Assembly (NCBI GenBank): GCA_025558075.1
Contig: JAHLKF010000013.1
Span: 434,001 to 498,000 of the forward strand
Reading direction: 5' to 3'
Length of the DNA stretch: 64,000 nt
From: Gaertneriomyces semiglobifer
Lineage: Eukaryota > Chytridiomycota > Chytridiomycetes > Spizellomycetales > Spizellomycetaceae
In this document: piece after piece, positions 8,577 through 62,836 of the stretch
Layout: each line of letters begins with the position of its first letter
Position numbering within the stretch: the first letter of the stretch is position 1
Translations under genes and position numbers: made by a program
The notes under the pieces: model-generated
What the model saw: the letters and a program-made list of their open reading frames with translations, nothing else
What the model was told of the DNA's origin: nothing
Database searches by the model: none

Positions 8577-8853
8577 TGTTGCAGAGGATCCTGCTGAGGC
8601 TCTGGTCCTTCTAATAAGCTTATGTGTATTCAAGTCTGAGGTTCTAAGAGTACAGTTGAATGCCCGGCATAAGAGAACCACCCGACGGAAAAGGTCACGT
8701 GTCGGGTGTTAGGGCACCCAGTCACATGGGTCACGTGCTCACGGGCACATGACGCACGTGTATGCGCTGATATGGATAAGAACCCATGCCATAGCGCGCG
8801 CCCTGGTTAGGGTATCCCTATGACGTGTATGTCACCGGGACCCCCTTACAACA
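8577..8853 (-). repeat. Copia-1 copy 1, 3' LTR (277 bp)
   Basis: Ends are TGTTG and CAACA. Its half next to base 8577 contains a subfamily-A segment (…CCCGGCATAAGAGAACC…) that the partner LTR at 13629 lacks, while the U3 half (about 8746-8853) differs from the partner by about one base. CACGTG occurs more than once. Confidence 0.9.
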
Positions 8854-8913
8854 CTCCCCCCTCGGTGCATGCACGACATTTCCTGCAAACTGCCCAACAC
8901 CTTCAGCAGCTGT

Positions 8914-11900
8914 TTAGTGCTTATTTTCAGTGTTCAACACCTTCAGGAGCTTGTCAGCAGTGTCAGGCGTTGTCAGCAACCTGTCAGCAGTGTCAGACAC
9001 CTTCAGCACCTTGTCAGACACTGTCAGCAGCTTGTCAGCAGTGTCGGACGCTGTCAGCAACTTGTCAGAAGCATCGGACATATGGAGACCCATGCGCGGA
9101 TGCATGCGATTCAGAGCAGGAGCGGCTAGAGCCTTGGTAAGTCCATCAGCAAGCTGATTATTGGTGGATACATAGCAGAGAGCGATTTCCTGGGTCTGAT
9201 GAACTTTTTCGCGGATGAAATGATGGCGGAGATCAATGTGCTTGGTGCGATTGTGATTAACTGGGTTGTTGACAAGTTTGATGGCTGCCTGGTTGTCCTC
9301 GTACACTGTTAGAGTGCCGTGTGTGTCAGGGCCATGTTCAGTGCCCGGGAGAATGGACTTGTGGGTGTTATTTTGTGGAAAGTGCTCAAGGAGCGCGAGC
9401 ATCAGTCGACGGAGCCAGACGGCCTCCTTAGCGGCCTCTGCTAACGCAATGTATTCTGCTTCTGCTGTAGATTGCGCCGTGCAGTTCTGGAGCTTGGATG
9501 CCCATGAAATAGCGCCTCCGTTCAAGAGAAAAAGGTACGCCGACGTCGAGCGTCGGTTCTCGGCATTTCCAGCGAAATCGGCATCAGAATAACCGTGCAA
9601 TGAACAGTTTGCTCCCCCGTCTCGAGAGCCATAGCGGAGCTTAAGATTTCGAGTGCCTTTTACATAGCGGAGGACCCGACGTGCAGCGTTCAGATGCTGT
9701 TCAGTGGGATTCGACAAGAAGCGGGACAGTTTGGAGATTGCAAAAGCAAGATCGGGCCGCGTAGCGATGGTAAGGTACATCAAGCTTCCAATTATTGACT
9801 GATAAAGCTTTTGATCGGCCAGGACATCGGTTTCGGACGCAGCGACAAGCGATAAACTTGGCGACAGTGGAACAGTGACAGATGCGGCATCGACAAGGCC
9901 ATAGCGAAGGAGCATGTCGTCAATGTATTTGCCTTGGTTCAGTGTCAATGTATCGACAGTGCGCGTGACTTCAATGCCCAGGATGTACGAAAGCTCCCCC
10001 ATGTCCTCCATCGCGAATCGCCGGGCAAGACCATTCTTAATGGACTGTATGCGGGCCGTCGTGGAGCAGATGGTGAGGTCATCAACGTACAGGGCGATGA
10101 TGTCAGGTGTGCCGCCGGCAGCAGGGCGAATGTACAGCGCGGTGTCGAGAACCGTGGGTTGGAAACCAACGGACTTCAGATAAGTGTCGAGGGTTTGGTT
10201 CCATAAGCGCGGTGACTGTTTTAACCCATAGATCGAACGTAGGAGTTTAACGTACGACCCGTCAGGGAGTTGCATATGAATGTCGGTGTCGATTACAGCG
10301 TTCAGGAATGCCGTGAGGACATCCATTTGGTGGACGACAAGGCAGAAGAGCTGAGAGAGAGCCAATAGCAGGCGGAGCGTGCTGAACTTGACGACCGGGG
10401 CATAGGTTTCATTGAAATCGAGACCCGGGCACTGGGTAAACCCACGGGCAACAAGGCGGGCCTTATACTTCTTGATGGACCCGTCCGGGTGATGTTTAAT
10501 CTTGAAAACCCATTTAGAATCGATGGCATAAGCATCAGACGGCAAGGCATCGACGGGTATCCACGTCTGATTGTCAAGTAAGGACTGGAGCTCTTTATCG
10601 ATGGCCTGCTGCCAGGCATGCCGGTCAGGTGAGCGCAGCGCTTGCTTATAAGTGACGGGTTCCCGGGCACGGGGGCCGTCCAGAGCGGACGCTACTAAGG
10701 CCTCGACTGTAGGTGCAATCGCCGGGGATTGGTGCTTACGAGCAAAGTATTCATCGACAACGGGCAAGCCGTGTAAGTTGAACGCATCGTTCCATTCAGG
10801 TTCAGAATACCCGACGTACTTAACAAAATATTGATGCTCCCCCGTCGGTGCGATCCGTTCATCAACAATGTACTCGACTTCAAAAACTTCATCATCGGGA
10901 GCGTCGGGAGCAGGATCGACATAGTTGGTTTCATCGAACGTGACGTCACGGGACCGATGAATGCGCTGTGTCAGGGGATCGTAGAAACGGTAACCCGTGG
11001 AGTCAGTGTACCCGATCAGTTTCATGCGACGGGCCCGGGGTTCGAGCTTTTTATGGGGACGGCGTTCGACGGGGATATGGACATAAGCGTCGGACCACAA
11101 GACCCGCAGGTTCGCCACGTCCGCAAGAGAACCATGCCATTTTTCATATGGAGTTGCATTTCCGATGGCGCGGGACGGGGTGCGCTGACGGAGGTAGTTG
11201 ACAGCAACGACGATTTCCCCACACAAGTGCTGAGGTATGTGACTCGACAGCATGACCGCCCGGGTTTGTGTCATTAACGTCTGATTATAACACTCGGCAA
11301 TGCCGTTTTGCGCGGGAGAGTATGCGTGGGTAGGACGAACCCGTGTGCCGTGCTGCCGGAGATCGCCGACAAGGGCATGACTCAGATATTCGCCGCCGTT
11401 CTCGCATCGCAGTTCAAGGATTTTGCAGCCATGGAGGTTTTCAGCATGTTGGCGGAAAGCGTGGAATTCAGCGGGGACATCATGTTTATGTTTGATGATG
11501 GTGACATGTGCGTATCGAGTAAGTTCGTCGATGAACATGACAAGGTACGGGCAGTGATCGAGTGTGTCATGCTCGACTGACTGTACGTCGCTGTGGATGC
11601 GACCAAAGACGCGGGTTGCAGGTTGGGGGTTGTCATGATTGAATGGGGAGCGTCGGGACTTAGCGACACGACACCCGACGCAGGTGGCAAGGGTGCCGGG
11701 CGCGGAAATGCCGTATGCGCGAAGCGCTAGTTGGAGATTAGCAGCGCTCGGATGACCGAAACATAGATGCCAGAGCTTAAGAGTGACAGAGTCGGCAGGA
11801 CTAGGAGCAGGGTCAGAGAGAGCATGTGAAGTAGGCGTTATACTTGGTGAATAAACAGTGTCATCGACAATCGCAGGTGTCGGAGGTGTCGGTGGTGTCG

Positions 11901-13374
11901 GTGGTGTCGACGGTGTCGACTCGGTCGAATTGGTCGATTCTGGTCGATTTGTCGGAAAATGCTGTGCCACCGTGTCGGACGCGTGAAATTGCTGTGCCAT
12001 CGGAAGCGCAGTGACGGCAGCGGGGGGCGCAGTCACGGACGAATCGTGGGTGTACCGGGATGGGCGACACGCGGTACGTGCGGACCTGCGGCGGGGATGA
12101 CTGGTGTAGGCTTCATATTCAGCCGGAGAGGCGGTTGTGTACCCGGCAATAAAATAAAGTTTATTGTGACATATGACATCAGCTACACGAGCACCCGACT
12201 TGCGATGAGTAATCCACCCGGCACTAAGATCAGCCGAGAAGTCTAATGCATAACGAGACTGGGCCAATGATGCGAAGGAGAGCAGGTTCCGCGGACATTC
12301 CGGAGCATAGAGCACGTCAATAAGCTTAAATAAACCGCGACGTGTGTTGATGATTAAGGTTCCCTTGCCGTAAGCAGCGCACGTGCCGATGCCGGAGATT
12401 TGTCGGGCCGAGGGAAAAGCTTGAAATTCCGTCAGAAGGAAGCGATCGCGAATGATGCTATGGGTGGCGCCCGAATCAAGAGCAATGGAGTGCGGCGCGT
12501 CACGGTCAGTCGATAAGACAAGGAAGGCCTCGGGATCGGAGTCGGTGTCAGCGTCGGAGTCGGGCGGAGCGGAGTCGGCCTCATGGTCGAGTTCAGCGGC
12601 ATGTGCGGCCGGGCGGGACTGAGCGCGTTTCTTGGCGTCAATGACAAGGGGACAGTCACGAACATAGTGGGTTCCTTGGGTGCAGATGTCACAGGGACGG
12701 GCCGTCGGCCTGGGACGGCGACGGGAATGCGTGGCAGCGGCGGCAGCGGCAAAGGCTTCAGGAGTCCGAGGTTTTGTGTATACTGATGCATCCAGGTCCA
12801 GTGCGGCAACTTGTAAGGCGTCGAGGGTTTGGGTGTCGGCGGCAATGCGATTGCGAATGCGGTCACGAACTGAGGGTTTGAGACCGCAAATGTAAGTAAG
12901 GCAAACGTCGTCAGAGTCCATGTTCGGCAGGGTTAAGCGAATTTTCTCGAAAGCGGAGTTGTATTCGCCGACGGTGCCGGTTTGAGTGAGGTTTCGCAGA
13001 GCAAGGCGTTGAGAGTCCAGATAAGCAGCGGGAATGAAGCGTTGATGGAGTGCACGACGGAGGGGGGTCCACTGAGTAATAACGTCGGCTTTTGCGGCAG
13101 AGCGGTTCCAGTCTTCCAGCCATGTAAGGGCGTGGTCGCGGAGATTGCAGACAGCGACTAAGAAAAGGTCCTCCTCAGTTAGATCGGGGCGTAAGGTGTG
13201 AATCATGTTGATGGAGCGGATGATGGTCAACAGCCGGGGGGCGGCATCCTGGGGATTGCCGTCGAACGGGGTGATTTTCTTAAGCGTGTCGGTTAACAGT
13301 CGTTCAGCGAACAGTGACGGAAGGTTGTCGGGGGCCGAGAATTCCTCCTTGGCACTGCGGGTCGAGCGGGCCAT
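8914..13374 (-). CDS. Copia-1 Gag-Pol polyprotein with integrated chromodomain (copy 1)
   Basis: The single ORF of 1486 residues begins shortly after the leader. Gag spans about 25-200. A CX2CX4HX4C zinc knuckle (CDICTQGTHYVRDC) is at about 228-241. The aspartic protease active site (ALDSGATHS) is near 298. Then come the pre-integrase HHCC (WHLCFGHP…CVGC, about 535-568) and the integrase core: D596, then E658 where Asp is expected (RCENGGEY), then E694. A chromodomain lies at about 830-879 with FEVEYIVDE, QYFVKYVGY and an EPEW turn. Reverse transcriptase (KARLVARGFTQ, YVDD at 1096) and RNase H follow. A C-terminal tail of about 54 residues is built from repeats like SDTADKLLT. Gag-Pol is one frame with no visible recoding site. 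The chromodomain is not normal for Ty1/copia. The D-to-E change probably weakens integration. Confidence 0.95.
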   Translation of the reverse strand: MARSTRSAKEEFSAPDNLPSLFAERLLTDTLKKITPFDGNPQDAAPRLLTIIRSINMIHTLRPDLTEEDLFLVAVCNLRDHALTWLEDWNRSAAKADVITQWTPLRRALHQRFIPAAYLDSQRLALRNLTQTGTVGEYNSAFEKIRLTLPNMDSDDVCLTYICGLKPSVRDRIRNRIAADTQTLDALQVAALDLDASVYTKPRTPEAFAAAAAATHSRRRPRPTARPCDICTQGTHYVRDCPLVIDAKKRAQSRPAAHAAELDHEADSAPPDSDADTDSDPEAFLVLSTDRDAPHSIALDSGATHSIIRDRFLLTEFQAFPSARQISGIGTCAAYGKGTLIINTRRGLFKLIDVLYAPECPRNLLSFASLAQSRYALDFSADLSAGWITHRKSGARVADVICHNKLYFIAGYTTASPAEYEAYTSHPRRRSARTACRPSRYTHDSSVTAPPAAVTALPMAQQFHASDTVAQHFPTNRPESTNSTESTPSTPPTPPTPPTPAIVDDTVYSPSITPTSHALSDPAPSPADSVTLKLWHLCFGHPSAANLQLALRAYGISAPGTLATCVGCRVAKSRRSPFNHDNPQPATRVFGRIHSDVQSVEHDTLDHCPYLVMFIDELTRYAHVTIIKHKHDVPAEFHAFRQHAENLHGCKILELRCENGGEYLSHALVGDLRQHGTRVRPTHAYSPAQNGIAECYNQTLMTQTRAVMLSSHIPQHLCGEIVVAVNYLRQRTPSRAIGNATPYEKWHGSLADVANLRVLWSDAYVHIPVERRPHKKLEPRARRMKLIGYTDSTGYRFYDPLTQRIHRSRDVTFDETNYVDPAPDAPDDEVFEVEYIVDERIAPTGEHQYFVKYVGYSEPEWNDAFNLHGLPVVDEYFARKHQSPAIAPTVEALVASALDGPRAREPVTYKQALRSPDRHAWQQAIDKELQSLLDNQTWIPVDALPSDAYAIDSKWVFKIKHHPDGSIKKYKARLVARGFTQCPGLDFNETYAPVVKFSTLRLLLALSQLFCLVVHQMDVLTAFLNAVIDTDIHMQLPDGSYVKLLRSIYGLKQSPRLWNQTLDTYLKSVGFQPTVLDTALYIRPAAGGTPDIIALYVDDLTICSTTARIQSIKNGLARRFAMEDMGELSYILGIEVTRTVDTLTLNQGKYIDDMLLRYGLVDAASVTVPLSPSLSLVAASETDVLADQKLYQSIIGSLMYLTIATRPDLAFAISKLSRFLSNPTEQHLNAARRVLRYVKGTRNLKLRYGSRDGGANCSLHGYSDADFAGNAENRRSTSAYLFLLNGGAISWASKLQNCTAQSTAEAEYIALAEAAKEAVWLRRLMLALLEHFPQNNTHKSILPGTEHGPDTHGTLTVYEDNQAAIKLVNNPVNHNRTKHIDLRHHFIREKVHQTQEIALCYVSTNNQLADGLTKALAAPALNRMHPRMGLHMSDASDKLLTASDTADKLLTVSDKVLKVSDTADRLLTTPDTADKLLKVLNTENKH

Positions 13375-13628
13375 CTAAAAAAAAAGGTGTTATACACAGG
13401 CAAGGTGCATTCAATAAGCAGTTGTCGTTGATCGCAGGCAGGGGGATCAATGGCAGTCGTCGTTGATCGCAGGCAGGGGGATCAATAAGTGTCGGGAGCG
13501 TCGTATGTCGGGAAAACAGCGTGATCGCTCGGGCAAGTGAGGAATCGTCGGTAACGGGCCGTTCCACCCGGAGACTGAAGGGCAGAGGATAAGCAGGGAA
13601 CAACTATCGATGCCAGGGGCTCATAACC
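13375..13628 (-). promoter_or_regulatory. Copia-1 copy 1 leader with tRNA-iMet-type primer-binding site and tandem repeats
   Basis: The bases immediately inside the 5' LTR, read on the minus strand, are GGTTATGAGCCCC. They are complementary to the anticodon stem-loop GGGCTCATAACC of eukaryotic initiator tRNA-Met, not to a tRNA 3' CCA end. This is the half-tRNA priming arrangement known from Drosophila copia and yeast Ty5. The leader then holds two copies of a roughly 35-bp repeat (CGTTGATCGCAGGCAGGGGG). Confidence 0.75.
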
Positions 13629-13903
13629 TGTTGCAGAGAGATCCTGCTGATGCTCTGATCCTTCTAATAAGCTTATGTGTATTCAAGTCTAAGGTTCTAA
13701 GTTCTAAACTGACGGTTGCGTTAAGCGCTTCCCGACGGAAAAGATCATGTGACTTAGGGTTAGAGCCTCAGTCACATGTGTCACGTGCTCATGGGCACAT
13801 GACGCACGTGTATGCGCTGATATGGATAAGAACCCATGCCATAGCGCGCGCCCTGGTTAGGGTATCCCTATGACGTGTATGTCACCGGGACCCCCTTACA
13901 ACA
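13629..13903 (-). repeat. Copia-1 copy 1, 5' LTR (275 bp)
   Basis: Ends are TGTTG/CAACA. It belongs to subfamily B in its R-U5 half (…CTGACGGTTGCGTTAAGCGC…), like the copy 2 LTRs, and differs there from its own 3' LTR. Confidence 0.9.
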
Positions 13904-14695
13904 CTCTTCTATAAAGAGCCGGATGTCCACGAGTCCGCCGGCGGTGTAATAGATGTGTTGTTGCCTGCAGGACTAGGGATGAGAGGTGTCAGAGAACTTA
14001 TAAGACTGGGGGCAGGATGATCAGTCACTGGTCATAGAACTGCCGGATGTCTTACTCGTTTAGATGCGACGGGACTTATAGATATGCTTAGAACCTTGCA
14101 TTCCTCTAGCGATCTATGTCTGCCTGATCTTTGTCGTATGAAGTCCGCGCGACCCTCTTACGGGCCCCTCTGACTTAAGCGACAACAGGAAATTACATCA
14201 CATGACTTAGCTGACTAAGATAGCTCTAACCTTAACACTAGCGCGTCTATATACTCCTACTTAATACTACCGGAAGTCTAAACCCGCTACACCTGAACAA
14301 GACTCAACTTGCTTATTATGCTTTAGCTGCAAGTTCCATGGTTCAGGAACCACAAACTTACCAGCAGGCAATTACCAGTAAGGATGCTGACAAGCGGATC
14401 AAAGCTATGGATGCGGAGTATGCCTCCCTGATGAGCAACAACACCTGGAAACTTGTTCCACTGTCACCTGATAGGAAGGCTATTGGATGCAAATGGGTAT
14501 AGAAACTCAAACTCAAGTCAGATGGGACTGTTGAACGCTACAAAGCCAGACTAGTTGCCAAAGGATAATGCCTGGAATTGACTTTACTGAGACCTTTGCC
14601 CCAGTTGCTAAGTTTGACACTGTCAGACTAGTCTTAGCCATTGCAGCCATGGAAGACTTAGAGATACATTAAATGGATGTTAAAAAACTGCCTAT

Positions 14696-15913
14696 TTGAA
14701 CGGAGTTTTGCAAGAGGATATCTATATGGAACAACCTGAGGGATATAGGAAGGGTCCCAACTTGGTGTGCCTGCTGCACAAGACTCTATATGGACTTAAG
14801 CAGTCTGGAAGGGAGTGGAACAGAGTGATCAACAAAGAACTGAATGCTCTGGGATTCAAAAGAAGCGTTGCTGATCATTGTTTATATGTGTTCCAGAAGG
14901 ACAACATCAAGTTCTATGTGGTTATCTATGTGGATGATCTGATAATGGCTGGTAACAACATGGAAGCCATAGGACAACTCAAGAACCAGCTGTCCAGCGA
15001 GTTCAAGATGACAGATTTGGGGCCACTGGAGTATTTTCTGGGCATACAAGTCATCAGAAAGCGTTCTGACAAGGCCATTTTTCTCTCCCAACAACTGTAC
15101 ATCAACAAGGTCCTGGCCAAATGCAACATGGATGCCTCCACACCTGTTTCTACACCAACAGAGACTGGAAAGCACCTTACCAAGGAGGATCAACCCAGTA
15201 CAAATGAAGAAAAACCCGCCATGGCTTCAGTTCCCTATAAGGAAGCAGTTGGTAGCTTGATCTATGCCATGCTAGGCACCAGACCTGACTTGGCTGCTGC
15301 CATCAGCCAAGTTTCCCAGTATATGGCCAACCCTGGCCAAGCTCACTGGAGTGCTGTCAAAAGAATAATTCGCTATTTAAAAGGTACAAAAGCTTTGAAA
15401 CTCAAGCTGGGTGGTGTAGACAGCAAGGAGGAGCTGGTTGGCTACTCTGATGCTGACTGGGCTGGAGATATTGATACCAGGAAGTCAACTACTGGCTATT
15501 TCTTCAAAATTGGGACTTCACCATTGGCCTGGGCAAGCAAAAAGCAGCCGACAGTCGCCCTATCTACTGCTGAGGCAGAGTATATGGCCCTTACCAACAC
15601 TGCTAAGGAGGTTATGTGGCTCAGGACACTTTTGCAAGATCTTGGTCAGTTGGACACCAAACAACCAACAGTCATTTATGGTGACAACCAAGGCTCTATA
15701 GCCATGAGCACCAATCCAGCTCATCATGATCGCCCAAAACACATAGATATCCACTTCCACTTCATTAGAGAAGCCGTGGAAAGTGGTACTATCAAGGTTC
15801 AGCACCTACCCTCTCAGGACTTGATTGCTGACACACTTACCAAACCTTTACCAAGAAAACAGTTCATCAAACTTAGAGCTGGAATGGGATTAGTTGAAGG
15901 GAATGCTCATTGA
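14696..15913 (+). pseudogene. Copia-2 pol 3' part: reverse transcriptase and RNase H
   Basis: About 400 residues are open: the RT motif NGVLQEDIYMEQPEGY, LYGLKQSGREW, the catalytic YVDD, LGPLEYFLGIQV, then RNase H (GYSDADWAGD, STAEAEYMAL, HIDIHFHFIRE) ending ADTLTKPLPR. This is the usual Ty1/copia order and length for this part. The upstream RT segment (14330-14690) continues the same domain but has in-frame stops, so the protein cannot be complete. It is a relic, although its 3' half is well conserved. Confidence 0.9.
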
Positions 15914-16213: not shown

Positions 16214-16542
16214 TGTTACAGAGGGATCCTGCTGATGCTCTGATCCTTCTAATAAGCTTATGTGTATTCAAGTCTAAGGTTCTAAGTTCTAAACTGACGG
16301 TTGCGTTAAGCGCTTCCCGACGGAAAAGATCATGTGACTTAGGGTTAGAGCCTGAGTCACATGTGTCACGTGCAGGTGCTGACATAGGTAAGCACTGGCA
16401 CCGTCATAACGCGTGCCCTGGTTAGGGTATCTCTATGACGTGTATGTCACCGGAACCCCCTTACAACACTCCCCCCTCGGTGCATGCACGACATTTCCTG
16501 CAAAACTGCCCGACACCTTCAGCAGCTGTTCAGTGCAGCTGT

Positions 16543-19520
16543 TCAGTGCTTATTTTCAGTGTTCGACACCTTCAGCAGCTTGTCAGCAGTGTCAGACATT
16601 GTCAGCAACTTGTCAGCAGTGTCAGACACCTTCAGCACCTTGTCAGACACCGTCAGCAACTTGTCAGCAGTGTCAGGCGCTGTCAGCAACTTGTCAGAGG
16701 GGTCAAGCATATGGAGACCCATGCGGGGAAGCAGAATTCGAAGGACAGGGGCTGCTAAGGCCTTGGTAAGTCCATCAGCAAGCTGATCATTGGTTGACAC
16801 ATAGCGGAGAGCGATTTCCTGGGTCTGATGGACCTTTTCGCGGATGAAATGGTGACGGAGATCGATGTGTTTGGTGCGGTTGTGATTGACTGGGTTGTTG
16901 ACAAGTTTGATGGCTGCCTGGTTGTCCTCGTACATTGTCAGAGCACTGTGCTCGTCAGGAAGAATGGATGCATGGATGTCATTGCGAGGGAAATGCTTGA
17001 GGAGCGCGAGCATCAGTCGACGGAGCCAAACGGCCTCCTTAGCGGCCTCTGCTAACGCAATGTATTCTGCTTCTGCTGTAGATTGCGCCGTGCAGTGCTG
17101 AAGCTTGGATGCCCATGAAATAGCGCCTCCGTTCAAGAGGAAAAGGTACGCCGACGTCGAGCGTCGGTTCTCGGCATTTGCAGCGAAATCGGCATCAGAA
17201 TAACCGTGCAATGAACAGTTTGCTCCCCCGTCTCGAGAGCCATAGCGGAGCTTAAGATTTCGAGTGCCTTTTACATAGCGGAGGACCCGACATGCAGCGT
17301 TCAGATGCTGTTCAGTGGGATTCGACAAGAAACGGGACAGTTTGGAGATTGCAAAAGCAAGATCGGGCTGCGTTGCGATGGTATGGTACATTAAGCTTCC
17401 AATTATTGACTGATAAAGTTTTTGATCAGCCAGGACGTCGGTATCGGTGGCAGCGACAAGCGATAAGCTCGGCGACAGTGGAACAGTGACAGATGTAGCA
17501 TCGACAAGGCCGTAGCGAAGAAGCATGTCATCAATGTATTTCCCTTGGTTCAATGTCAATGTATCGGCAGCGCGCGTGACTTCAATGCCCAGGATGTACG
17601 AAAGCTCCCCCATGTCCTCCATCGTGAAGCGCCGGGCAAGACCATCCTTAATGGACTGTATGCGGGCCGTCGTGGAGCAGATGGTGAGGTCATCAACGTA
17701 CAGGGCAATGATGTCAGGTGTGCCGCCGGCAGCGGGGCAAATGTAAAGCGCCGTGTCGAGGACTGTGGGTTGGAAACCAACGGACTTAAGATAAGTGTCG
17801 AGTGTTTGATTCCACAACCTGGGTGACTGTTTTAAATCGTAGATTGACCGTAGGAGTTTGACATAAGAGCCGTCGGGAAGTTGCATATGGAGGTCGGTGT
17901 CGATGACCGCGTTGAGGAAGGCTGTCAGGACATCCATTTGATGAATGACGAGCCCGAAGAGCTGAGAGAGGGCGAGGATTAGGCGGAGCGTGCTGAACTT
18001 GACGACCGGGGCATAGGTTTTATTGAAATCGAGGCCCGGGCGCTGGGTAAACTCGCGGGCAACAAGGCGGGCCTTATACTTCTTGACGGGGCCGTCGGGG
18101 TGATGCGTGATCTTGAAGACCCATTTGGAGTCGATGGCATAAGCATCAGATGGCAAGGCGTCGACGGGCCTCCATGTCTGATTGTCTAGCAAGGATTGGA
18201 GTTTTTTATCGATGGCCTGCTGCCAGGCATGACGGTCAGGTGAGCGCAGCGCTTGCTTATAAGTGACGGGTTCCCGGGCACAGGGACCGTCAAGAGCAGA
18301 CGCTACTAATGCCTCGACTGTAGGAGGAGATGCAGGGGAAGCTGACAAAGAGCGATGTTTGCGGGCGAAATAGTCATCGACGACGGGCAAGCCGTGCAGG
18401 TTGGAAGCGTCGTTCCATTCGGGTTCAGAGTACCCGCCGTACTTAACGAAATATTGGTGCTCCTCCGTCGGGGCGATCCGTTCATCGACGATGTATTCGA
18501 CTTCGAATTCTTCATCGGGAGCATCGGGAGCAGGGTCGACATAGTTGGTTTCGTGGAACATGACGTCCCGGGAGCGATGGATAAGCTTAGTGGCCGGGTC
18601 ATAGAAGCGATAACCCGTGGAATCGGTAAACCCGACGAGTTTCATCTTGCGAGCACGAGGTTGGAGCTTCTTATGTGGACGACGTTCAACCGGAATGTGC
18701 ATGCATGCGTCGGACCACAGTACCCGCAGGTTTTGGACGTCGGCAGGTTGACCGTGCCATTTTTCATATGGAGTTGCGTTCCCAATGGACCAAGAGGGTG
18801 TGCGCTGACGGAGATAATTGACTGCGAGGACTATTTCCCCCCACAAGCGCTGGGTGATGTGACTTGACAGCATGATCGTGCGAGTTTGGGATATCAGGGT
18901 CTGATTGTAGCGTTCGGCAATGCCGTTTTGCTCGGGAGAATAAGGATGAGAGGGATGGACACGAGTACCATGGGCCCGGAGTTCATTTACAACAGCATGA
19001 TTCACATATTCGCCGCCGTTATCACAGCGGATTTCGAGGATTTTACAACCATGAAGATTTTCGACGTGTTGCCGGAAAGCGTGAAGTTCAGCAGAGACGT
19101 CATCCTTATGCTGGAGAATGGCCACGTGCGCAAAGCAGGTGAATTCGTCGATGAATGTGACCAGATACGGCCGGCGGTCAAGAGTAAGATGCTCCACGGA
19201 TTGCACGTCACTGTGGATGCGACCAAGGACGCGGGTTGCAGGTTGGAGATTGTCATGATTGAAGGGAAGGCAATGGGACTTAGCGACACGACACCCGACG
19301 CAGGTGGCAAGGGTGCCGGGCGCGGAAATGCCGTATGCGCGAAGCGCTAGTTGGAGATTAGCAGCGCTCGGATGACCGAAACGTAGATGCCAGAGCTTAA
19401 GAGTGACAGAGTCGGCAGGACTAGGAGCAGGGTCAGAGAGAGTATGTGAAGTAGGCGGTATATTTGGTGAATAAACAGTGTCATCGGCAATCGCAGGGGT
19501 CGGAGGTGTCGACTTGGTCG
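16543..19520 (-). pseudogene. Copia-1 copy 2 Pol: integrase, chromodomain, RT, RNase H
   Basis: The open frame 19788-16543 reads as real Pol from about 19520. It contains the pre-integrase WHLRFGHP…CVGC, and an integrase core with all three acidic residues intact (HSDVQ, RCDNGGEY, GIAERYN). Then come a chromodomain (FEVEYIVDE…YFVKYGGY), RT with YVDD, RNase H, and the same C-terminal SDTADKLLT-type tail. Protease is absent and the frame does not connect to gag. The integrase region is more diverged from copy 1 than the flanking regions. The upstream part of the ORF (about 19520-19788) is the gag region read in the wrong frame. Confidence 0.9.
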
Positions 19521-20254
19521 CATTGAGCGAAAAGTGCTGTGTGGGTTCCTTGGTTGCAGACATCACAGGGGCGTGTCGGAGGCATGGGGCGACGCCGAGA
19601 GTGCGTGGCGGCGGCAGCGGCAAAAGCTTCGGGAGTCCCGGGAGTTGGAGGTTTCGTGTACACAGAAGCGTCCAAGTCCAAGGCAGCAACTTGTAAGGCG
19701 TCAAGGGTCTGAGTGTCAGCGGCAACTCGATTGCGAATGCGGTCACGAACCGAAGGTTTGAGACCGCAGATGTAAGTAAGGCAAACATCGTCAGAGTCCA
19801 TGTTCGGCAGGGTTAAGCGAATTTTCTCGAAAGCAGAGTTGTATTCGCCGACAGTGCCGGTTTGAGAAAGGTTTCGCAGGGCAAGGCGTTGGGAGTCCAG
19901 GTAGGCAGCAGGAATGAAACGTTGATGGAGCGCACGACGGAGGGGGTTCCATTGAGTAATAATATCAGCTTTGGCGGCAGAGCGGTTCCAGTCTTCAAGC
20001 CATGTAAGAGCATGGTCACGAAGATTGCAGACAGCGACTAAGAAAAGGTCCTCTTCAGCGAGATCGGGGCGTAAGGTGTGAATCATGTTGATGGAGCGGA
20101 TGAATGTCAATAGTCGGGGGGCGGCATCCTGGGGATTGCCGTCGAACGGGGTGATTTTCTTAAGCGTGTCGGTTAACAGTCGTTCAGCGAACAGTGACAG
20201 AGGGTTGTCGGGGGCCGAGAAGTCCTCCTTGGCACTGCGGGTCAAGCGGGCCAT
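19481..20254 (-). pseudogene. Copia-1 copy 2 Gag, truncated at the zinc knuckle
   Basis: The ORF starts at the same Met as copy 1 (MARLTRSAKEDFSAP) and matches its Gag closely through the start of the zinc knuckle (CDVCNQGTH). There the deletion replaces the last Cys-containing half of the knuckle and runs into a short foreign-frame tail. The RNA-binding knuckle is therefore incomplete and no protease follows. Confidence 0.9.
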
Positions 20255-20515
20255 CTAAAAAAAATAACAAGATGTTATACACAGGCAAGGTGCAATATGG
20301 GTCAGTTATCGTTGATCGCAGGCAGGGGGATCAATCAGTGTCGAGCGTCGTTAATCGCAGGCAGGGGGATTCACGGTGTCGGGAGCGTCGTATGTCGGGA
20401 AAACAGCGTGATCGCTCGGGCAAGGGAGGAATCGTCGGTAACGGGCTGTTCCACCCGGAGACTGAAGGGCAGAGGATAAGCAGGGAACAGCTATCGATGC
20501 CAGGGGCTCATAACC
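20255..20515 (-). promoter_or_regulatory. Copia-1 copy 2 leader and primer-binding site
   Basis: This has the same arrangement as copy 1: GGTTATGAGCCC next to the LTR, and two copies of the GATCGCAGGCAGGGGGAT repeat in the leader. Confidence 0.7.
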
Positions 20516-20793
20516 TGTTGCAGAGGGATCCTGCTGATGCTCTGATCCTTCTAATAAGCTGATGTGTATTCAAGTCTAAGGTTCTAAGTTCTAAACTGAC
20601 GGTTGCGTTAAGCGCTTCCCGACGGAAAAGATCATGTGACTTAGGGTTAGAGCCTCAGTCACATGTGTCACGTGTGCCAGCACACATGATACACGTGCAG
20701 GTGCTGACATAGGTAAGCACCGGCACCGTCATAACGCGCGCCCTGGTTAGGGTATCCCTATGACATGTATGTCACCGGAACCCCCTTACAACA

Positions 20794-32746: not shown

Positions 32747-33204
32747 TGTAGCGGGTTTAGACTTCCGCTAGTGATAAGTAGAAGTAGATAGACGCGCTAG
32801 TGTTAAGGTTAGAGCTATCTTAGTCAGCTAAGTCATGTGATGTAATTTCTGTTGTCGCTTAAGTCAGCGGGGCCTATAAGAGGGCCGCGCAGACTTATGC
32901 GACGAAGATCAGGCAGACACAGATCTCCAGAGAGAATACAAGGTTCTACTCATATCTATAAGTCCCGTCGCATCTGAACCAGTAAAGCATCCGGCAGTTC
33001 TAAGACCAGTGACTGATCATCCTGTTCCCTTAGAATCAGCAGTCTTATAAGTTCTCCGACGCCTCTCATCCCTAGCCCTGCAGGCATCAGCACCTCTATT
33101 ATACCGCCGGCGGACACTTGAATGTCCGGCTCTTAACAAAGGAGATCATTAATAGCGGAGTAATCCTATTGGAAACCCTACCGTTCGATCATAATCCTTC
33201 TACA
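32747..33204 (+). repeat. Gypsy B 5' LTR (458 bp)
   Basis: TGTAGCGGG…CTTCTACA. The last A is also the first base of the gag ATG. Confidence 0.92.
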
Positions 33205-34928
33205 TGGTGGAGAATCGAGTTTGCACTGCACGTCAGGAACTCTTACAACTGATATACAACGGCGCCTCTGCACCAATGCAGAACCCTCTAAACCCTCGGA
33301 TCGATTCCGAGTATGGCAACAATAGCCGACTTGTACAAGAGGCGGGAAGTTTAGGAGTCGGTGATTCCGGCGTACGGTATCCCTCTCCCATGGCTGTTGA
33401 AAGAGACCCTCTCGATCACCCGCATGCCGCACATGCACCGGCCGATCGATTAGGACCCGCGGCACTTCATTCGTATTCCAGGCCTAGAAGCAATTCGTTA
33501 CCTTCCAACACCCTCATTCCCGGAGCATGGCATCCTAACTGGAACAGGATGGGACCGGTCGATTCGGTCCGCAATCCCTTCAACGTCCGCACGAGCCATC
33601 AATTCTACAGCGAATCAGATGAAAGCTCAAGGGATTCTTCTCTCGACCGAGCAGGTCAGAGAGGTCGAGGCGCTCTTGATTCCCTCGGACAGCGAGGCCC
33701 TCCGCGTGGCTTGCATCATCAGCAAGCATCAGTGCACTTTCAAGGTTTTCATCAACCGACTCGGGCAGGACCTGAGGTCGTGCAACCATCATATATGGCG
33801 CAGCCATCGGCCAACTTACCGACCATCCACAAAGGCAGAGTACTCGAGGCTTTGCTAGCTCAGATACAGGAGCAAGGGGAGGTCATTGCCAACATTAAGC
33901 GAGAAATAACGGAACTCCGACAACAGAGACACCAGTCCAGGGAGCCCTCCGTACCGCAGAGTTACAGGAGCACATATGTGCCCAGCAACCCTGCCTATCC
34001 ACCATTCACTGTTCCCGTAGAGCAGTATGGAACCTCCGCGGTCCCACGCCGGTACAAGACAACTACCGAAGCAGACACCGGACCGTTTAAAGGAGATGAC
34101 AGTCCTCACATAGATGACTGGCTCGAGGAAGCGCTTGGCGCACAAGGTCGCTTCCTCGCAGCAGATCAGGAGATGGTCATGCTCCTTCCTGCTATCTTCC
34201 CACCGAAGAGCCCAGCCAGAGTATGGTTTCAACAACTACCAATGCGGGCAAAAGCCGAATGGACTTGGCCGCAATGGCAAGCCGAGTTACAAGCGGAATT
34301 TGGTGATGAGACGCGTAGGAATCGCGCTAAGACAACTTACGAGCGCTGCACCCCGGATCCACAAGCGCACAGCTCTTTCTTAGCGTACATCCACCAGAAG
34401 TTGCTGCTCAGGGCACAGGCATTCGGCAACGAAGCCGACGTACGAGCCCCGAAGGATCGACTCCTTCAAGACATGTTAGACTACTTCCCCGGGCGAGTTA
34501 AATTAGCCGCCCAAAGTGCCGGGGTACGTTCTATACCGCCACTTAAATCCTTCCTCAAACGGTATTTCTCCTCGCCGGAGGCCAAAAACGAGGACCCCTG
34601 TTATAAGTCTCGACGGACCGAAGAAGGGTCCAAGAGCCGAGACAAGCACAAGTCGAACAAGGACAAGGGCAAAGCCCAACCCCAGGCGGATGACTCCACC
34701 AATTACCCTCATGGTAGAGGACCGGCAAACCAGGATTGGAAAGGTCTGCCAAACCCGTGGAGGAAACCACCGAACAACTGCCGAGAATGCGGCCACAGGC
34801 ACTGGTTCAATTACTGCTTTAAGAACGCGAAGCTGGTAGACCCCGCTGATGGCGTCGGTGGTCCATATGGTAAACCGAACCCAAGGCCAAAGAGAAATCG
34901 TCCAGTCGCAAGGAAAAGACCTACTTGA
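33204..34928 (+). CDS. Gypsy B Gag (574 residues)
   Basis: The ORF is intact. It starts MVENRVCTARQELLQ with the ATG spanning the LTR/internal junction, so the primer-binding site itself encodes the first residues. A coiled-coil-like stretch lies at about residues 215-245 (LLAQIQEQGEVIANIKREIT). The retrotransposon Gag core follows (…PFKGDDSPHIDDWLEEAL… WPQWQAELQAEFGDETRR… FPGRVKLAAQ). A basic region and an atypical zinc knuckle, CX2CX3HX4C (CRECGHRHWFNYC), come near the end. The length is long for a gypsy Gag. It ends before the pol frame opens. Confidence 0.93.
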   Translation: MVENRVCTARQELLQLIYNGASAPMQNPLNPRIDSEYGNNSRLVQEAGSLGVGDSGVRYPSPMAVERDPLDHPHAAHAPADRLGPAALHSYSRPRSNSLPSNTLIPGAWHPNWNRMGPVDSVRNPFNVRTSHQFYSESDESSRDSSLDRAGQRGRGALDSLGQRGPPRGLHHQQASVHFQGFHQPTRAGPEVVQPSYMAQPSANLPTIHKGRVLEALLAQIQEQGEVIANIKREITELRQQRHQSREPSVPQSYRSTYVPSNPAYPPFTVPVEQYGTSAVPRRYKTTTEADTGPFKGDDSPHIDDWLEEALGAQGRFLAADQEMVMLLPAIFPPKSPARVWFQQLPMRAKAEWTWPQWQAELQAEFGDETRRNRAKTTYERCTPDPQAHSSFLAYIHQKLLLRAQAFGNEADVRAPKDRLLQDMLDYFPGRVKLAAQSAGVRSIPPLKSFLKRYFSSPEAKNEDPCYKSRRTEEGSKSRDKHKSNKDKGKAQPQADDSTNYPHGRGPANQDWKGLPNPWRKPPNNCRECGHRHWFNYCFKNAKLVDPADGVGGPYGKPNPRPKRNRPVARKRPT

Positions 34929-35043
34929 TGGACGACGATGACTCGTCGAGCGAGCACGCATATTTAGTGTTAGCGAACGCTCCAGAGGTATTCTTCCTGG
35001 CAGATGCAGAAGGTTTCTGCCCGATAGGGTATTTTCAGAGCGT

Positions 35044-36435
35044 ATCCCACTAGAGGGGTTTAGCGGGACACAGCGAATAGCTTCAACCCCGCGATCCACG
35101 TGGCTGGATGGCCACGTACTCCTAGCCGAGCTAAGAGAACTTGAACACAAGGAGATCGACTCTCCACCGACAGTCGAAGAGCTCCGCAAGGTCGCCACCG
35201 TCTGGGGCACCCCGGGCATCGACTTGTTTGGACCAAATATGAAGGAATCACACCTTCACCAAATATTGACTGAACCCATCGCATGGAGTTCCGGTCGAAT
35301 CTATTACGCGTATGTCCCGAAGGCATACGCTGCGCCCGTTCTTGAACAAGTCAAGAAGGACGCTACTCGGTCCTTGATCCTCATCTCACACGTGCCTGAG
35401 AGGGATCGAGAGGCTTTCTTGCAGTGGAGCCAAGACCACCCGCTGATCGTCCGCGACGATCAGCACGGGCCCGGACTGGTTGCATTTCTGCTAACTGGCC
35501 ACCCAGCAGTGGCCGATTACTATGTCAGACGCCAATTCCCGCATTACGTCAAGCTGGGGGAACACCCACGAGTGCTCGCCATGCAAGACCGCCCTCAGGT
35601 CACACACCTGTTGGCCCAGGACTCGGAGCCCTTGTCACGCCCAAGAATCCCAGTCCGTCCCTTCCTTAACAGGGACAAAGCCTGTGCAGCTACTTGGAGA
35701 GAGGTGCTTAAAAAAGGGTCGAGCCCGGCAACCTCCTCAACACGGCACAGCACTGCGTTTACCATCACCTCGACGGTGGGGAAGCGTGTAACACTTAGCG
35801 AGGTTCTGGTTAACCCAGCTAGTCGCGTCAAGAAACAGCCGTGCTGGACGCTCACAATTATCAACAGTCTGTGGTTCCCAACCGTGTTGGACACTGGAGC
35901 AAGCGTATCACTCATCTCCGCCAACCTAAAAGGGCCCGCTTACTCAGACAAGGACTTGCAGGCGGCCCCGGCCATGGATTTTTCCGGCATTGGAGGCCAG
36001 CTTAACTCGTCCTCGGTGGTATCGCTGCAGATGTCACTTAGAGGCGAATCAAGTGAGTACCTTACCTTTCGTGGCTACTTTCGGGTGATCGACTACCCCA
36101 AGCCACTTATCATCTTGGCAAACGATATCCTAGGACCTCTGCAAGTACAGACCCTGGTCCAGGACCCGCCACTCAAAACGTTTGCGGTCACCATGACCAA
36201 CCCCGATATTATCGTTCTTTGCTCGGTCACGGCCGAATTGCCAACGACTCACAGGTCCGGCGTTCGAGTACAAACAGCGTGGGGAATGTTCACCAAGGAC
36301 TCTTCATTCAAGCAGAAGAAGAAAGCCGCATCTGTATCCGAGGTCTTCAATGTCGAAGTGGTCGAGGCATCCTCGGACACCTTGACTCAGTTGATTGACC
36401 CAGAGAGGAGACGCTTACTCGAGACGAAGCCTTAG
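35044..36435 (+). CDS. Gypsy B protease region with unusual N-terminal extension
   Basis: Open from about 35054 in the same frame as the Met at 35224. About 220 residues without recognised fold (…GRIYYAYVPKAYAAPVLEQV… FLQWSQDHPLIVRDD…) precede the retropepsin active site FPTVLDTGASVSLISA, followed by MDFSGIGGQ and DILGPLQVQ as expected of a retropepsin. It ends at a stop (36433) where a frame change is needed to enter RT. Typical gypsy elements have little between Gag and protease, so the extension is notable. Confidence 0.8.
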   Translation: MPLEGFSGTQRIASTPRSTWLDGHVLLAELRELEHKEIDSPPTVEELRKVATVWGTPGIDLFGPNMKESHLHQILTEPIAWSSGRIYYAYVPKAYAAPVLEQVKKDATRSLILISHVPERDREAFLQWSQDHPLIVRDDQHGPGLVAFLLTGHPAVADYYVRRQFPHYVKLGEHPRVLAMQDRPQVTHLLAQDSEPLSRPRIPVRPFLNRDKACAATWREVLKKGSSPATSSTRHSTAFTITSTVGKRVTLSEVLVNPASRVKKQPCWTLTIINSLWFPTVLDTGASVSLISANLKGPAYSDKDLQAAPAMDFSGIGGQLNSSSVVSLQMSLRGESSEYLTFRGYFRVIDYPKPLIILANDILGPLQVQTLVQDPPLKTFAVTMTNPDIIVLCSVTAELPTTHRSGVRVQTAWGMFTKDSSFKQKKKAASVSEVFNVEVVEASSDTLTQLIDPERRRLLETKP

Positions 36436-37913
36436 AGCTTAAGGCCAAGCGGAACATACCGGATGACTTAGCAGTAGCGCCCGTTGACTTCGAGCAACAA
36501 CTACGCTCAGAGAAGTTCAAAGTGGAGTTGAGCCGAGACCGGATCGTCATCTGGTTCCTCATCCAGCTTCTGCGCAAGTTCCATAAAGCGTTCTCTTACG
36601 AAGACAATTTAATTGGGCATCACGACCAAATTCCCTTCGCGCCCAAGTTTATCGGACCACCTCCGCCACGCACGAAACCACGACACTTCTCACCGAAGGA
36701 CAAGGAAGTGTTGGACAAGGAAACGCAAACCATGGTTGGTATCAACCGCTGGGAGCGCACAGACGATGCCATAGCCGTTAGCGACCCCATTATAGTTCAC
36801 TATGTGGACAAACCCCCGCGTATTGCATTTGACTTCCGAGAGGTCAACAAGCGCATGGAATGGGATCCTTACCCTTTCCCAAACATGGCGGGCATTCTAC
36901 AGTGGCTCGTAGCCATTCCGTTCCGCTTTATTTCTGGTGGAGATGCCAATAAAGGCTTCTACCAAATCTTCATCGCCGATCCGCACGTGCGCAATTGGCT
37001 TTCGCTTCGTCTCTCAGACGGTATCTACCGCTTGCGCTACATGCCGTTTGGCCCACAGAACGCCCCCGCGCACTTCTGTCGGGTGATGGATCACGTACTG
37101 TGTGGCATCAAGTGGCAAAATGTTGACAACTTTGTCGATGATGTCCACACCCGATCTATCACAGCCAAGGATGCCCTGGATGCCATAGCGCAATGGCTTA
37201 GTCGGTTCGTGGCCGCTGGCCTCACGCTGCGTCTGGACAAATGCAATTGGTTGTTCCGAGAGCTCGCAGCCTTGGGCTTCATTGCGTCCCAGGACGGGCG
37301 TAGGCCCGATCCAGCCAAAGTCGCCGCCATTACCCAATGGGATCTGCCGCTCTATGTCGGCGATCTCTGGGGCTTTGTGGGTCTGTTGGGGTTCTTCTGT
37401 CGCTTCATTGACAAGCATGCCGAACTCACCAAACCCTTGCATGAGGCAATCCTGGAAGGTGTCCAAGCTTATCGCATACACAAGGCTGCTAGAGACGAAC
37501 GCAAGGGGTCACGCCCCCAAAAATCCGCCGGTAAACCCCGGCAAGAAACCTTTGACGAAGCCCCGGTGTCCGCGCTAAACTCTGCCGCTGACAACCTGGC
37601 CAAAGTCACTCTGCAACTCCCGTCAGTGCCATCCAAGGCGGTCAACATGCCCGCGGGTGTCATTGACCCTCTTTGCCCAGGCCGCCTCAAACACAAGGCG
37701 CCTGACCGGGCCATAAAACGCTTTTTGGCCACTCACCCCGTCGTCTGGAACGACGACAGAAAAAAGGCCTTCGCAGCCTGCAAGGTGGCGCTCACCTCTG
37801 CACCGGTGCTCGCAGCACCACGTTCGGGCTTCCCGATTACCATACACACGGATGCATGCGTGGAAGCCTTCAACATTACGGTTGACCAACTACAACCAGA
37901 TACCACGCATTGA
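36430..37913 (+). pseudogene. Gypsy B reverse transcriptase / start of RNase H
   Basis: The frame opens just past the protease ORF (DEALELKAKRNIPDD) and continues through RT: FDFREVNKRMEWDPYPFP, GGDANKGFYQIF, MPFGPQNAPAHFCRVMDHVL, the catalytic FVDD (VDNFVDDV), and the thumb and connection region. A roughly 80-residue Lys/Pro-rich insertion (about 37480-37740) precedes the RNase H start (ITIHTDACVEAF). The frame stops at 37911, within RNase H. RT acidic residues are retained, but the RNase H start is degenerate (TDAC, no Gly). Confidence 0.9.
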
Positions 37914-37924
37914 CCGCTAGCCTA

Positions 37925-38732
37925 CTACTCTAGGTGAACTACAAAGACTGAGGCCAATGCACCCCCGGTCGAACTAGAAGCCGGTTGCTTGATTTGGGGC
38001 CTCGACAAAGCGCGCTGCTACCTCGAAGGTGCCCAGTTCACGGTGGTCATAGATCACCGTGCCCTCTTGTGGCTCAAGAACTACAAAGGGACCAACCGCA
38101 AAGTCCAACGTTGGGCAGTCGAACTTGCCTACTGGGATCAGTGGATGACGATCGTTCACAAACCCGGCCGCTTCCACATAGTTGCGGATACGTTGTCACG
38201 GCTGGTAGCAGCCTCCACAGTCCTGCCACACACCTCCACTTCCACTCAGAAGGTCGAGGAGGTCGAGGAGGCCGAGGACATCTACACCTTTTACACGTTT
38301 GAAACGTATTACCAGCACATAGACTTCGAGCCCACACTGGTGGCGCACATTCGTGACGCTCAAAGGGCCGAGACGGACAGTCCTGCGGCTGCCGCTCTCA
38401 CCATCTTAAGGGGCTCAAATCCACTTGCCGACTTGTCACGCGCCGAGCTCGCTATAATTCACGATTGGCGTCTTAATGACGAGATATTGGAACACCATTA
38501 CGCTCACGCCGACAACTCCCCTTGGCGCACTTACCTGCCCGCCGACCTTCGCACCGAGGTGCTCGGCCTTCTTCACGAGGAGGGAGGGCACTTTGGCTTC
38601 ACACGGACGTTTGCTAAAGTGGCAGCCCAATTTTGGTGGCCGCACATGTCCGGGAAGTACGCAACTTCTGTTGGGCGTGCGAAAAATACCAGCAAACAAA
38701 GCCCGGACCCCGTCACACATCCGGGCTACTAA
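37925..38732 (+). pseudogene. Gypsy B RNase H end and integrase zinc domain start
   Basis: After a frameshift and stop, the sequence reads TKTEANAPPVELEAGCLIWG, FTVVIDHRALLWLKN, then KPGRFHIVADTLSR (RNase H C-terminus), then the integrase HHCC start (LLHEEGGHFGFTRTF… FWWPHMS). A +1 shift near 38660 moves the CWACEKYQQTK half of the zinc domain into the next frame. Confidence 0.88.
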
Positions 38733-39856
38733 ACCCAATTGAAACACCTCTGGGACGGTGGGAATGTATCACGACGGACTTTCTCACCAAATTACCGTTA
38801 ACTGCACGAGGCCACGACGGCTTCCACATCATATGCTGTAAGAAAACGCACCGGGTGCACATTTACGTGCATAACAATACGTGGAAAGCTGATCGCACAG
38901 CGCGTGTGCTCGTGGAGCGCTACTACCCGCTGCACGGCCTACCTCGCAAGATTATTTCGGACAGAGACACACGTTTCACCAGCCTGCTATGGAAAGAAGT
39001 CAAACGGCAACTGAACATAGATCATCACCTAACCACGTCTCACCACCCGCAAGGCGACGGCCAATCAGAGCGGGAGAACCGCTTGGTTCTCCAAGTGCTC
39101 CGGACGGTCGTCAATGCACGACTGGATGACTGGGACCTGTGTCTACCGATGGTAAAGTTTGCCATCAATGACACATTACACGAGGGAATGCAGATGACTC
39201 GGTTTGAAGCCGATCTCGGATATTCCCCCTCGACTCCTTTGGGCGCGCTGTCCAAGGATCTAGAAAGCGTGCGCAACGCTACAGCAGCCGAGCTGCTCCA
39301 ACGCCTGCAGGACATTGACGTCCTCACAAGAGAACTCATGTTCGAAGCGCAAGCGTTCCAGAAGAAATACTACGACAAATCGCACAGAGAAGTCACGTAC
39401 AAGAAAGGGGACAAGGTGTACCTTAGCACCAAACACCTCAAAGGTTACGAAGGGAAATTGACCTCACGATGGGCCGGGCCCTTTGATGTAACTGCAGTGG
39501 AAAAATACGACGTCTACAAGCTCAAATTGCCAGACACCATGAGTTGATTGTACCCCTACTTCCATGTTTCGAAACTAAAAGAGTACATCGAGCCTCAGCC
39601 GGGCCAGAAACGGTACGATAACCCGGGCCCCGAGATCGTTGATGACGAGGAAGAATGGGAAGTAGAAGCAGTTGTCGGCCACAGAGACTTTGGACGGCGG
39701 AAACAGCGGCAATACAGAGTCCGCTGGAAAGGATGGGCCGACTCGGAGGACACGTGGGAGCCCGAGTCGCAACTCACCAACTCCAAGGAGGCCATCGAGG
39801 AGTACTGGAAGGGGTTACCCCAAGTTCCAGACACCGCCTTTCTATTCCACTTATAG
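38660..39856 (+). pseudogene. Gypsy B integrase with C-terminal chromodomain (one nonsense codon)
   Basis: Integrase continues from CWACEKYQQTK. The acidic triad is visible as TTDFLTKLP, SDRDTRFTS and GDGQSERENR. The GPF/Y-type module (RWAGPFDVTAVEKYDVYKL) follows. A TGA at 39545-39547 interrupts the frame just before LYPYFHVSKLKEY, consistent with a CGA-to-TGA change. A classic chromodomain follows at 39650-39820 (EWEVEAVVGHRDF, YRVRWKGWADSEDTWEPE) with three aromatic cage positions, all Trp. This is the signature of chromoviruses and is thought to steer insertion to methylated-histone chromatin. Confidence 0.93.
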
Positions 39857-61267: not shown

Positions 61268-61654
61268 TGTTGTAAGGGAGTCCCGGTGACATACACGTCA
61301 TAGGGATTCCCTAACCAAGGCGCGCGTTATGACGCTGCCAGTGCTTACCTATGTCAGCACCTGCACGTGCATCATGTGCCCTGGCACACGTGACACATGT
61401 GACAGCTACCCTAACGCCCTCTCACGTGATCTTTTCCGTCGGGTGGTTCTCTTATGCCGGGCGTTCAACTGTACTCTCTTCAGACTTGTATACACATAAG
61501 CTTATTAGAAGGACCAGAACCTCAGCAGGATCCTCTGCAACCGGTTATAAGCCCCTGGCATTGCTAGCTGTCTCCTGCTTATCCTCTGCCCTTCAGTCTC
61601 CGGGTGGAACGGCCCGTTATTGACAGTTTCCGCCTGCCCGAGCGATCACGCTCC

Positions 61655-62607: not shown

Positions 62608-62836
62608 AATGTAGGGTATGCACCGAGGGGGGAGTGTTGCAATAAAATCCCAGTGGCATACATGCCATTGGGGTTACCCCGTTATCGGTAATTGCTATGT
62701 CAGCACTGACAGTCACATGATCTTTTCCATCGGGAAGCGCTTAACGCAACCGTCAGTTTAGAACTTAGAACCTTAGACTTGACAGATAACAGAGCTTATT
62801 AGAAGGATAAGAGCATCAGCAGGTTCCTCTGCTACA

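Follow-up and report, generated by a model that had tools for sequence, protein, structure and literature searches.

A Chromo-family domain between the integrase and reverse transcriptase of a Ty1/Copia element in the chytrid Gaertneriomyces semiglobifer

Chromodomain targeting is a textbook mark of chromoviruses, and a retrotransposon on contig JAHLKF010000013.1 of the chytrid Gaertneriomyces semiglobifer (assembly GCA_025558075.1) raises the question of whether a fungal Ty1/Copia element uses the same module. The window analysed here is the whole stretch of 64,000 nucleotides at positions 434,001 to 498,000 of this contig, and the element (copy 1) occupies 8577..13903 of its minus strand. 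An original prediction had placed a chromodomain inside the polyprotein between integrase (IN) and reverse transcriptase (RT), and the letters that it quoted were found in frame at that position. Residues 829–882 (10729..10890, minus strand) are a Chromo-family domain, as judged by profile and predicted fold. The domain probably constitutes the C-terminus of a Ty1/Copia integrase. Its predicted ligand is methylated histone H3, through which it is likely to steer the integrase to heterochromatin.

The Pfam Chromo profile (PF00385, curated cut-off 25.1 bits) matched residues 831–877 (10744–10884). The match exceeded the cut-off when the region was submitted as a 100-residue piece (28.5 bits, E 1.4e-6) and in a six-frame search of the genome (28.8 bits; 20.86 Mb in 66 contigs). 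A PDB sequence search with the copy 1 domain found S. pombe Chp1 as the top match (E 2e-4), followed by HP1 and CDYL2. The structural check gave the fold that the prediction implied: in an AlphaFold2 model of 161 residues (mean predicted local distance difference test score, pLDDT, 71.4; SH3 part of low confidence), the domain is predicted as strand-strand-strand-helix with pLDDT 90–93, a three-strand sheet packing on the C-terminal helix. The nearest fold is the Chp1 chromodomain, and the closest folds in general are methyl-lysine readers. By alignment, F831, Y853, and Y856 occupy the three places of a group I aromatic cage (the group I/II distinction is drawn in passages of PMC5006619), in agreement with the predicted F/Y/Y. 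These residues are nearly invariant among the genome copies covering each place, the window copy included (26/26, 25/26, and 27/27, respectively). The domain is also kept in a second copy of the family in the window (18367..18507, minus strand; Pfam), as expected of a fixed part of the family.

The surrounding domains are those of Copia. The chromodomain sits between the SH3-like C-terminal integrase domain (SH3_retrovirus, residues 748–818, 10921..11133) and the Copia reverse transcriptase (RVT_2, residues 935–1170, 9865..10572; 197.8 bits, cut-off 31.6) in an open gag-pol frame of 1,486 residues (8914..13374), all on the minus strand. The order of the Pfam domains is Gag, Pol_BBD, rve, SH3_retrovirus, Chromo, and RVT_2, with rve and Chromo below their cut-offs in the whole protein. 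The protease-region beta-barrel Pol_BBD, with DSGAT, is at 12253..12480, and the integrase core rve (residues 589–687, 11314..11610) scored 27.9 bits against a cut-off of 32.6. Both features of Ty1/Copia (Pseudoviridae), namely integrase ahead of RT in one Pol and an RVT_2 domain, are present; the Ty3-type Pol of chromoviruses, with integrase after RT, is not the arrangement in copy 1. The window copy deviates at one of three integrase residues, presumably the catalytic acidic ones, at which 24 other genome copies examined do not.

How might such a domain act? Cleavage of the polyprotein would leave the chromodomain on the integrase, where it would bind histone H3 methylated at lysine 9 (H3K9me) or possibly H3K27me. 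The binding would tether the pre-integration complex to H3K9-methylated nucleosomes, and new copies would be steered into silent chromatin. The targeting parts of long terminal repeat (LTR) elements are located at the integrase C-terminus, as stated in passages of PMC5006619. An HP1-like gene of the host combines a chromodomain with a chromoshadow domain within a single frame of 472 residues, and the H3K9 methylation mark is therefore probably present. The positions of the copies were compared with those of gypsy elements: 36 of the 46 RVT_2 places in the genome were kept as the family (31 after merging of tandem copies), six, including two weak pieces, were assigned to other Copia families, and four pieces were dropped. 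The gypsy markers (13 of 14 RNase H places and 39 of 86 Chromo places) were hand-picked, excluding host genes, the chromodomain Copia family, and weaker places, and the kinase places that served as controls were reduced from 121 to 100 by dropping neighbouring pieces. Fourteen of the 31 family copies lay within 50 kb of gypsy, versus 2 of the 100 kinase places (Fisher 1e-8).

Several observations weigh against recognition and targeting by this domain. Three of the six places of other Copia families were also within 50 kb of gypsy, and hence the proximity does not show targeting; the clustering fits targeting and equally fits purging elsewhere or ordinary clustering of transposable elements. 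A search for Pre-SET, the H3K9 methyltransferase domain, yielded no match in the host, which carries little weight because 14 controls were likewise without a match. The Chromo score in the whole polyprotein was below the cut-off (23.0 bits, E 7.7e-5), and the best Foldseek match, with E 2.9e-3, did not reach the threshold of 0.001. The second cage place in the window element is Tyr rather than Trp and the usual TWEP is absent; P0002 resembles the window element at this place, and the remaining relatives printed have Trp. In five tandem-array copies on contig C6, a stretch of 40 residues that contains the chromodomain helix has been lost. Chromodomains of retroelements may also have other roles: the title of a paper on Tf1 names cDNA binding besides target choice.

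The search for other Copia elements with the domain was productive. The listings of two protein searches (the best 120 of 168 and 48 of 48; P0002 and P0005 in both) together comprise 166 distinct relatives, 22 of which carry Chromo alongside Copia-type Pol domains according to precomputed Pfam columns. Nearly all of the 22 come from metagenomes. P0166, from the chytrid Powellomyces hirtus, is the one chromodomain relative with a fungal name among those listed, and another is labelled as a metagenome-assembled genome of Ktedonobacteraceae, a label that we take for misbinning. Nine relatives were scanned and gave Chromo scores of 31–53 bits at the same place. A hidden Markov model (HMM) of the chromodomain found all 23 chromodomain proteins (the window's included) and none of 145 other Copia proteins, even at E<1; the 0/145 alone counts as a test, because 20 of the 23 had contributed pieces to the training of the model. 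The segment was thus not encountered as a non-chromo linker of ordinary Copia elements, the case that the original prediction had named as refuting. Scans of IMG/VR with A1 and P0057 gave no relatives.

The Pol trees indicate how often the domain was gained. In an IN+RT+RNase H (RH) tree from which the chromodomain was excluded, 13 chromodomain elements form one clade (support 100/99); its 64 rows came from 70 with full cover by dropping four long rows and then cutting 52 non-chromodomain rows to 50. An integrase tree of 76 rows, containing 21 of the 23 chromodomain proteins (P0122 and P0136 were too short) and 55 hand-thinned non-chromodomain rows (the thinning was mostly of Closterium), places 20 chromodomain elements, including those of the window and P. 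hirtus, in one clade (98/88). An RT-only tree (70 rows, 54 of 84 non-chromodomain crops retained) has them in three places separated by weakly supported forks, 13 of the 14 being joined by IN+RT+RH. The sorting of the domain on these trees fits one gain in this Copia lineage, with subsequent retention, separate from chromoviruses, the Pol of which is of the Ty3 type. P0057 was rejected as a member of the clade: it falls outside in both the IN+RT+RH and integrase trees, with one origin in 0/200 bootstrap trees of each. By the approximately unbiased (AU) test, however, the 14 chromodomain rows of the IN+RT+RH tree are compatible with a single origin (p 0.398), and so a second capture in P0057 is suggested at most; its chromodomain is possibly such a capture. 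P0057 itself (1,906 residues, jgi source) is a distant Copia polyprotein with a chromodomain of 38.5 bits at the same place.

The Gag region (12805..13293, minus strand) bears on a different origin. As a piece, it scored 50.0 bits with Retrotrans_gag and 42.7 bits with Ty3_capsid, both above the cut-offs. A Copia-type Gag, which is usual among the relatives and not defining for Ty1/Copia, was not recognised in copy 1, since Retrotran_gag_2 was not listed for it (HMMER filters discard most matches above E 0.1). A Gag family was recognised in 12 of the 22 chromodomain relatives and in each was PF03732, the Retrotrans_gag type also seen in the window element; 0 of 54 relatives with the Copia-type PF14223 carry Chromo (hand count). 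These pairings, together with the gypsy elements with chromodomains in the genome, raise the possibility, which we regard as doubtful, that the chromodomain and a Ty3-type Gag were recombined into a Copia element as a block from a Ty3/gypsy chromovirus. The placeable PF03732 relatives, however, all belong to one clade, and at most one such event is therefore needed. In hhalign, moreover, the gag profile could be aligned to Copia gag over the C-terminal region of capsid and zinc knuckle (96%) but not to resident gypsy gag, a small and divergent set. Our own gag profiles gave the same weak cross-match. A phmmer search with the P0005 gag found two other Copia proteins with Copia-type gag (P0012, 7.7e-7; P0023, 5.9e-5), and no useful match to the gag came from a search of PDB sequences. 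As hhalign, our own profiles, and the PDB search add no further support, the Ty3 kinship of the Gag is indicated solely by Pfam.

Trees of the chromodomain itself also disfavour a resident gypsy source. They were built on 57 and 55 columns and are poorly resolved; the second left out 13 of 24 own chromodomains (near-copies and long branches). In the first, four changes are required for 20 Copia domains, 14 of which are joined by the domain of a host gene with HMUDK_hel (97/95). In the second, a branch without strong support (79/84) separates this gene and 22 Copia domains (without P0057) from the resident gypsy, HP1, Chp1, and CDYL2 domains. A single clade was not rejected for the 22 (p 0.101) or for all 23 (p 0.065). 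The tree proposed by the original prediction thus separates the Copia domains from resident gypsy, within what so few columns can resolve. The host gene (L082:3899-5128, contig C6, ~969.9 kb) has an HMUDK_hel match of 119.7 bits and a C-terminal chromodomain of 43.5 bits. The grouping hints at the host gene as the source of the Copia chromodomain, or at capture by the host. We tentatively raise, as a conjecture that is more probably wrong in some part than right, that one ancient event founded a 'chromo-Copia' lineage, so far recorded in chytrids and metagenomes. It would combine a Copia polymerase and half-tRNA priming with a capsid of Ty3 type and with an integrase tail that reads histones and derives from a host chromodomain gene, not from chromoviruses. 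The chromovirus strategy would thus have been re-invented independently, and selection for heterochromatin aiming would have preserved it.

Over 28 loci of the genome, 17 synonymous and 18 nonsynonymous unique changes were counted in the chromodomain, corresponding to a nonsynonymous-to-synonymous ratio (pN/pS) of 0.33. The values elsewhere were 0.32 (RT), 0.30 (RNase H region), 0.43 (IN), 0.47 (SH3), and 0.51 (linker). Purifying selection on the chromodomain is thus about equal in strength to that on RT, given the small counts. Frames of at least 1,400 residues hold nine of the 46 RVT_2 places, and one of the nine has a stop. An alternative is that the domain is a structural, chromodomain-like integrase spacer that binds DNA, cDNA, or Gag, histone reading having been lost in the lineage of the window element. 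The Tyr at the second cage place of P0001, with EWND in place of TWEP, and the Tyr of P0002 are in line with such a loss, as is a Pfam Chromo score that is the lowest of ten scored chromodomain proteins. We nevertheless consider the spacer rather unlikely, because the three cage places are aromatic in all genome copies but one, pN/pS is as low as that of RT, and the closest folds read methyl-lysine. Chance resemblance within an ordinary Copia linker, to which the whole-protein score slightly below the cut-off might point, is highly improbable and was ruled out by the scores of the nine relatives and the 0/145 other Copia proteins, besides the high-confidence fold prediction.

A chromodomain in the integrase tail of Copia elements has precedents. 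According to passages of Llorens et al. 2009 (PMC2774666), the CoDi-A Copia elements of diatoms carry a chromodomain at the integrase C-terminus, thought to have been captured separately from chromoviruses, and no chromodomain was detected in other Copia elements. Besides its own Chronos, a 2017 paper names chromodomains, in the portion consulted, for chromoviruses and CoDi-I alone (PMC5348765). The independent capture by Copia that the original prediction called striking therefore stands as a real domain in a Copia Pol but is not new for Copia. For fungi, passages of a survey of LTR elements tie chromodomains to Gypsy (PMC3248453), those on a centromeric Copia element of Ganoderma list GAG, INT, RT, and RH domains (PMC10817607), and the main text of PMC6875170 does not contain the word chromodomain. 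Among the best-ranked matches in the open-licence full-text literature, as far as the parts seen go, no fungal Copia element with a chromodomain was found, subscription papers and Repbase lying outside this scope. Chromodomain Copia as such is thus already known from diatoms, and the fungal lineage is new as far as we found.

CoDi-A and CoDi-I, compared by description only, share the Copia Pol and the integrase C-terminal chromodomain with the window element but reside in diatoms. Chromoviruses and the resident chromodomain gypsy elements share the C-terminal chromodomain and the Retrotrans_gag/Ty3_capsid Gag (Pfam), whereas the Pol order and RT of the window element are Copia (integrase before RT, RVT_2). 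Chronos of oomycetes (PMC5348765) and the chromodomain gypsy of Ectocarpus (PMC12477816) are, in the passages concerned, further LTR elements that acquired a chromodomain separately; unlike the window element, both are Ty3/gypsy. Ty5, a yeast Copia element, resembles the proposed targeting in that its integrase is aimed at silent chromatin, but it is tethered to the heterochromatin protein Sir4 and not through a chromodomain (passages of PMC5006619). A second major LTR superfamily that acquired the same module in fungi and retains it under selection would make heterochromatin aiming a solution reached more than once, not a peculiarity of a single lineage. Because the chromodomain occurs together with an unusual Gag, entire modules may also be exchanged between superfamilies.

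Copy 1 (5,327 bp, minus strand) was delimited by comparison of its LTRs and flanks, which carry a 5-bp target duplication, AAGAG. The 5' LTR (13629..13903, 275 bp, TGTTG...CAACA) and 3' LTR (8577..8853, 277 bp) are identical in 235 of 278 aligned columns. The differences are concentrated in a single block, as if one of the two had been partially replaced by another subfamily after insertion. Adjoining the 5' LTR is a 13-nt primer-binding site, GGTTATGAGCCCC (13616..13628), and adjoining the 3' LTR is a polypurine tract read from the sequence (8854..8863). In Drosophila copia, half-tRNA priming uses an inner site of tRNA-Met. GGTTATGAGCCCC is complementary at 13/13 nt to the anticodon-side inner part of host tRNA-Met (CAT) genes, which we take for the initiator tRNA. 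By sequence, copy 1 is thus a putative half-tRNA primed (hemivirus-like) Copia element.

The second copy of the family occupies 16214..20793 (minus strand), with LTRs at 16214–16468 and 20516–20793 and a reading frame at 16543–19788. A neighbouring nucleoside transporter (247–1419) is closest in identity, among the named proteins listed, to those of the chytrids Powellomyces hirtus, Geranomyces, and Spizellomyces (62–63%), although the top-scoring named protein is from Coemansia (42%). Between the two copies lies a remnant of a different Copia family (14437–15913, plus strand), in which no chromodomain was found. A broken Ty3/gypsy element (33204–39811, plus strand) has its own chromodomain at 39656–39811 (58.0 bits), and the chromodomain Copia family is apparently represented by a solo LTR at 61268–61541 and a partial LTR at 62711–62836. 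Elsewhere in the genome, a head-to-tail Copia array with a period of 3.91 kb lies on contig C6 (L083, 49.5–59.4 kb), with similar copies near 95–105 kb. On contig C7 (L058, 755.5–765.4 kb), frames resembling a DNA methyltransferase and part of SNF2, as read by eye, adjoin the second-best Chromo match of the genome.
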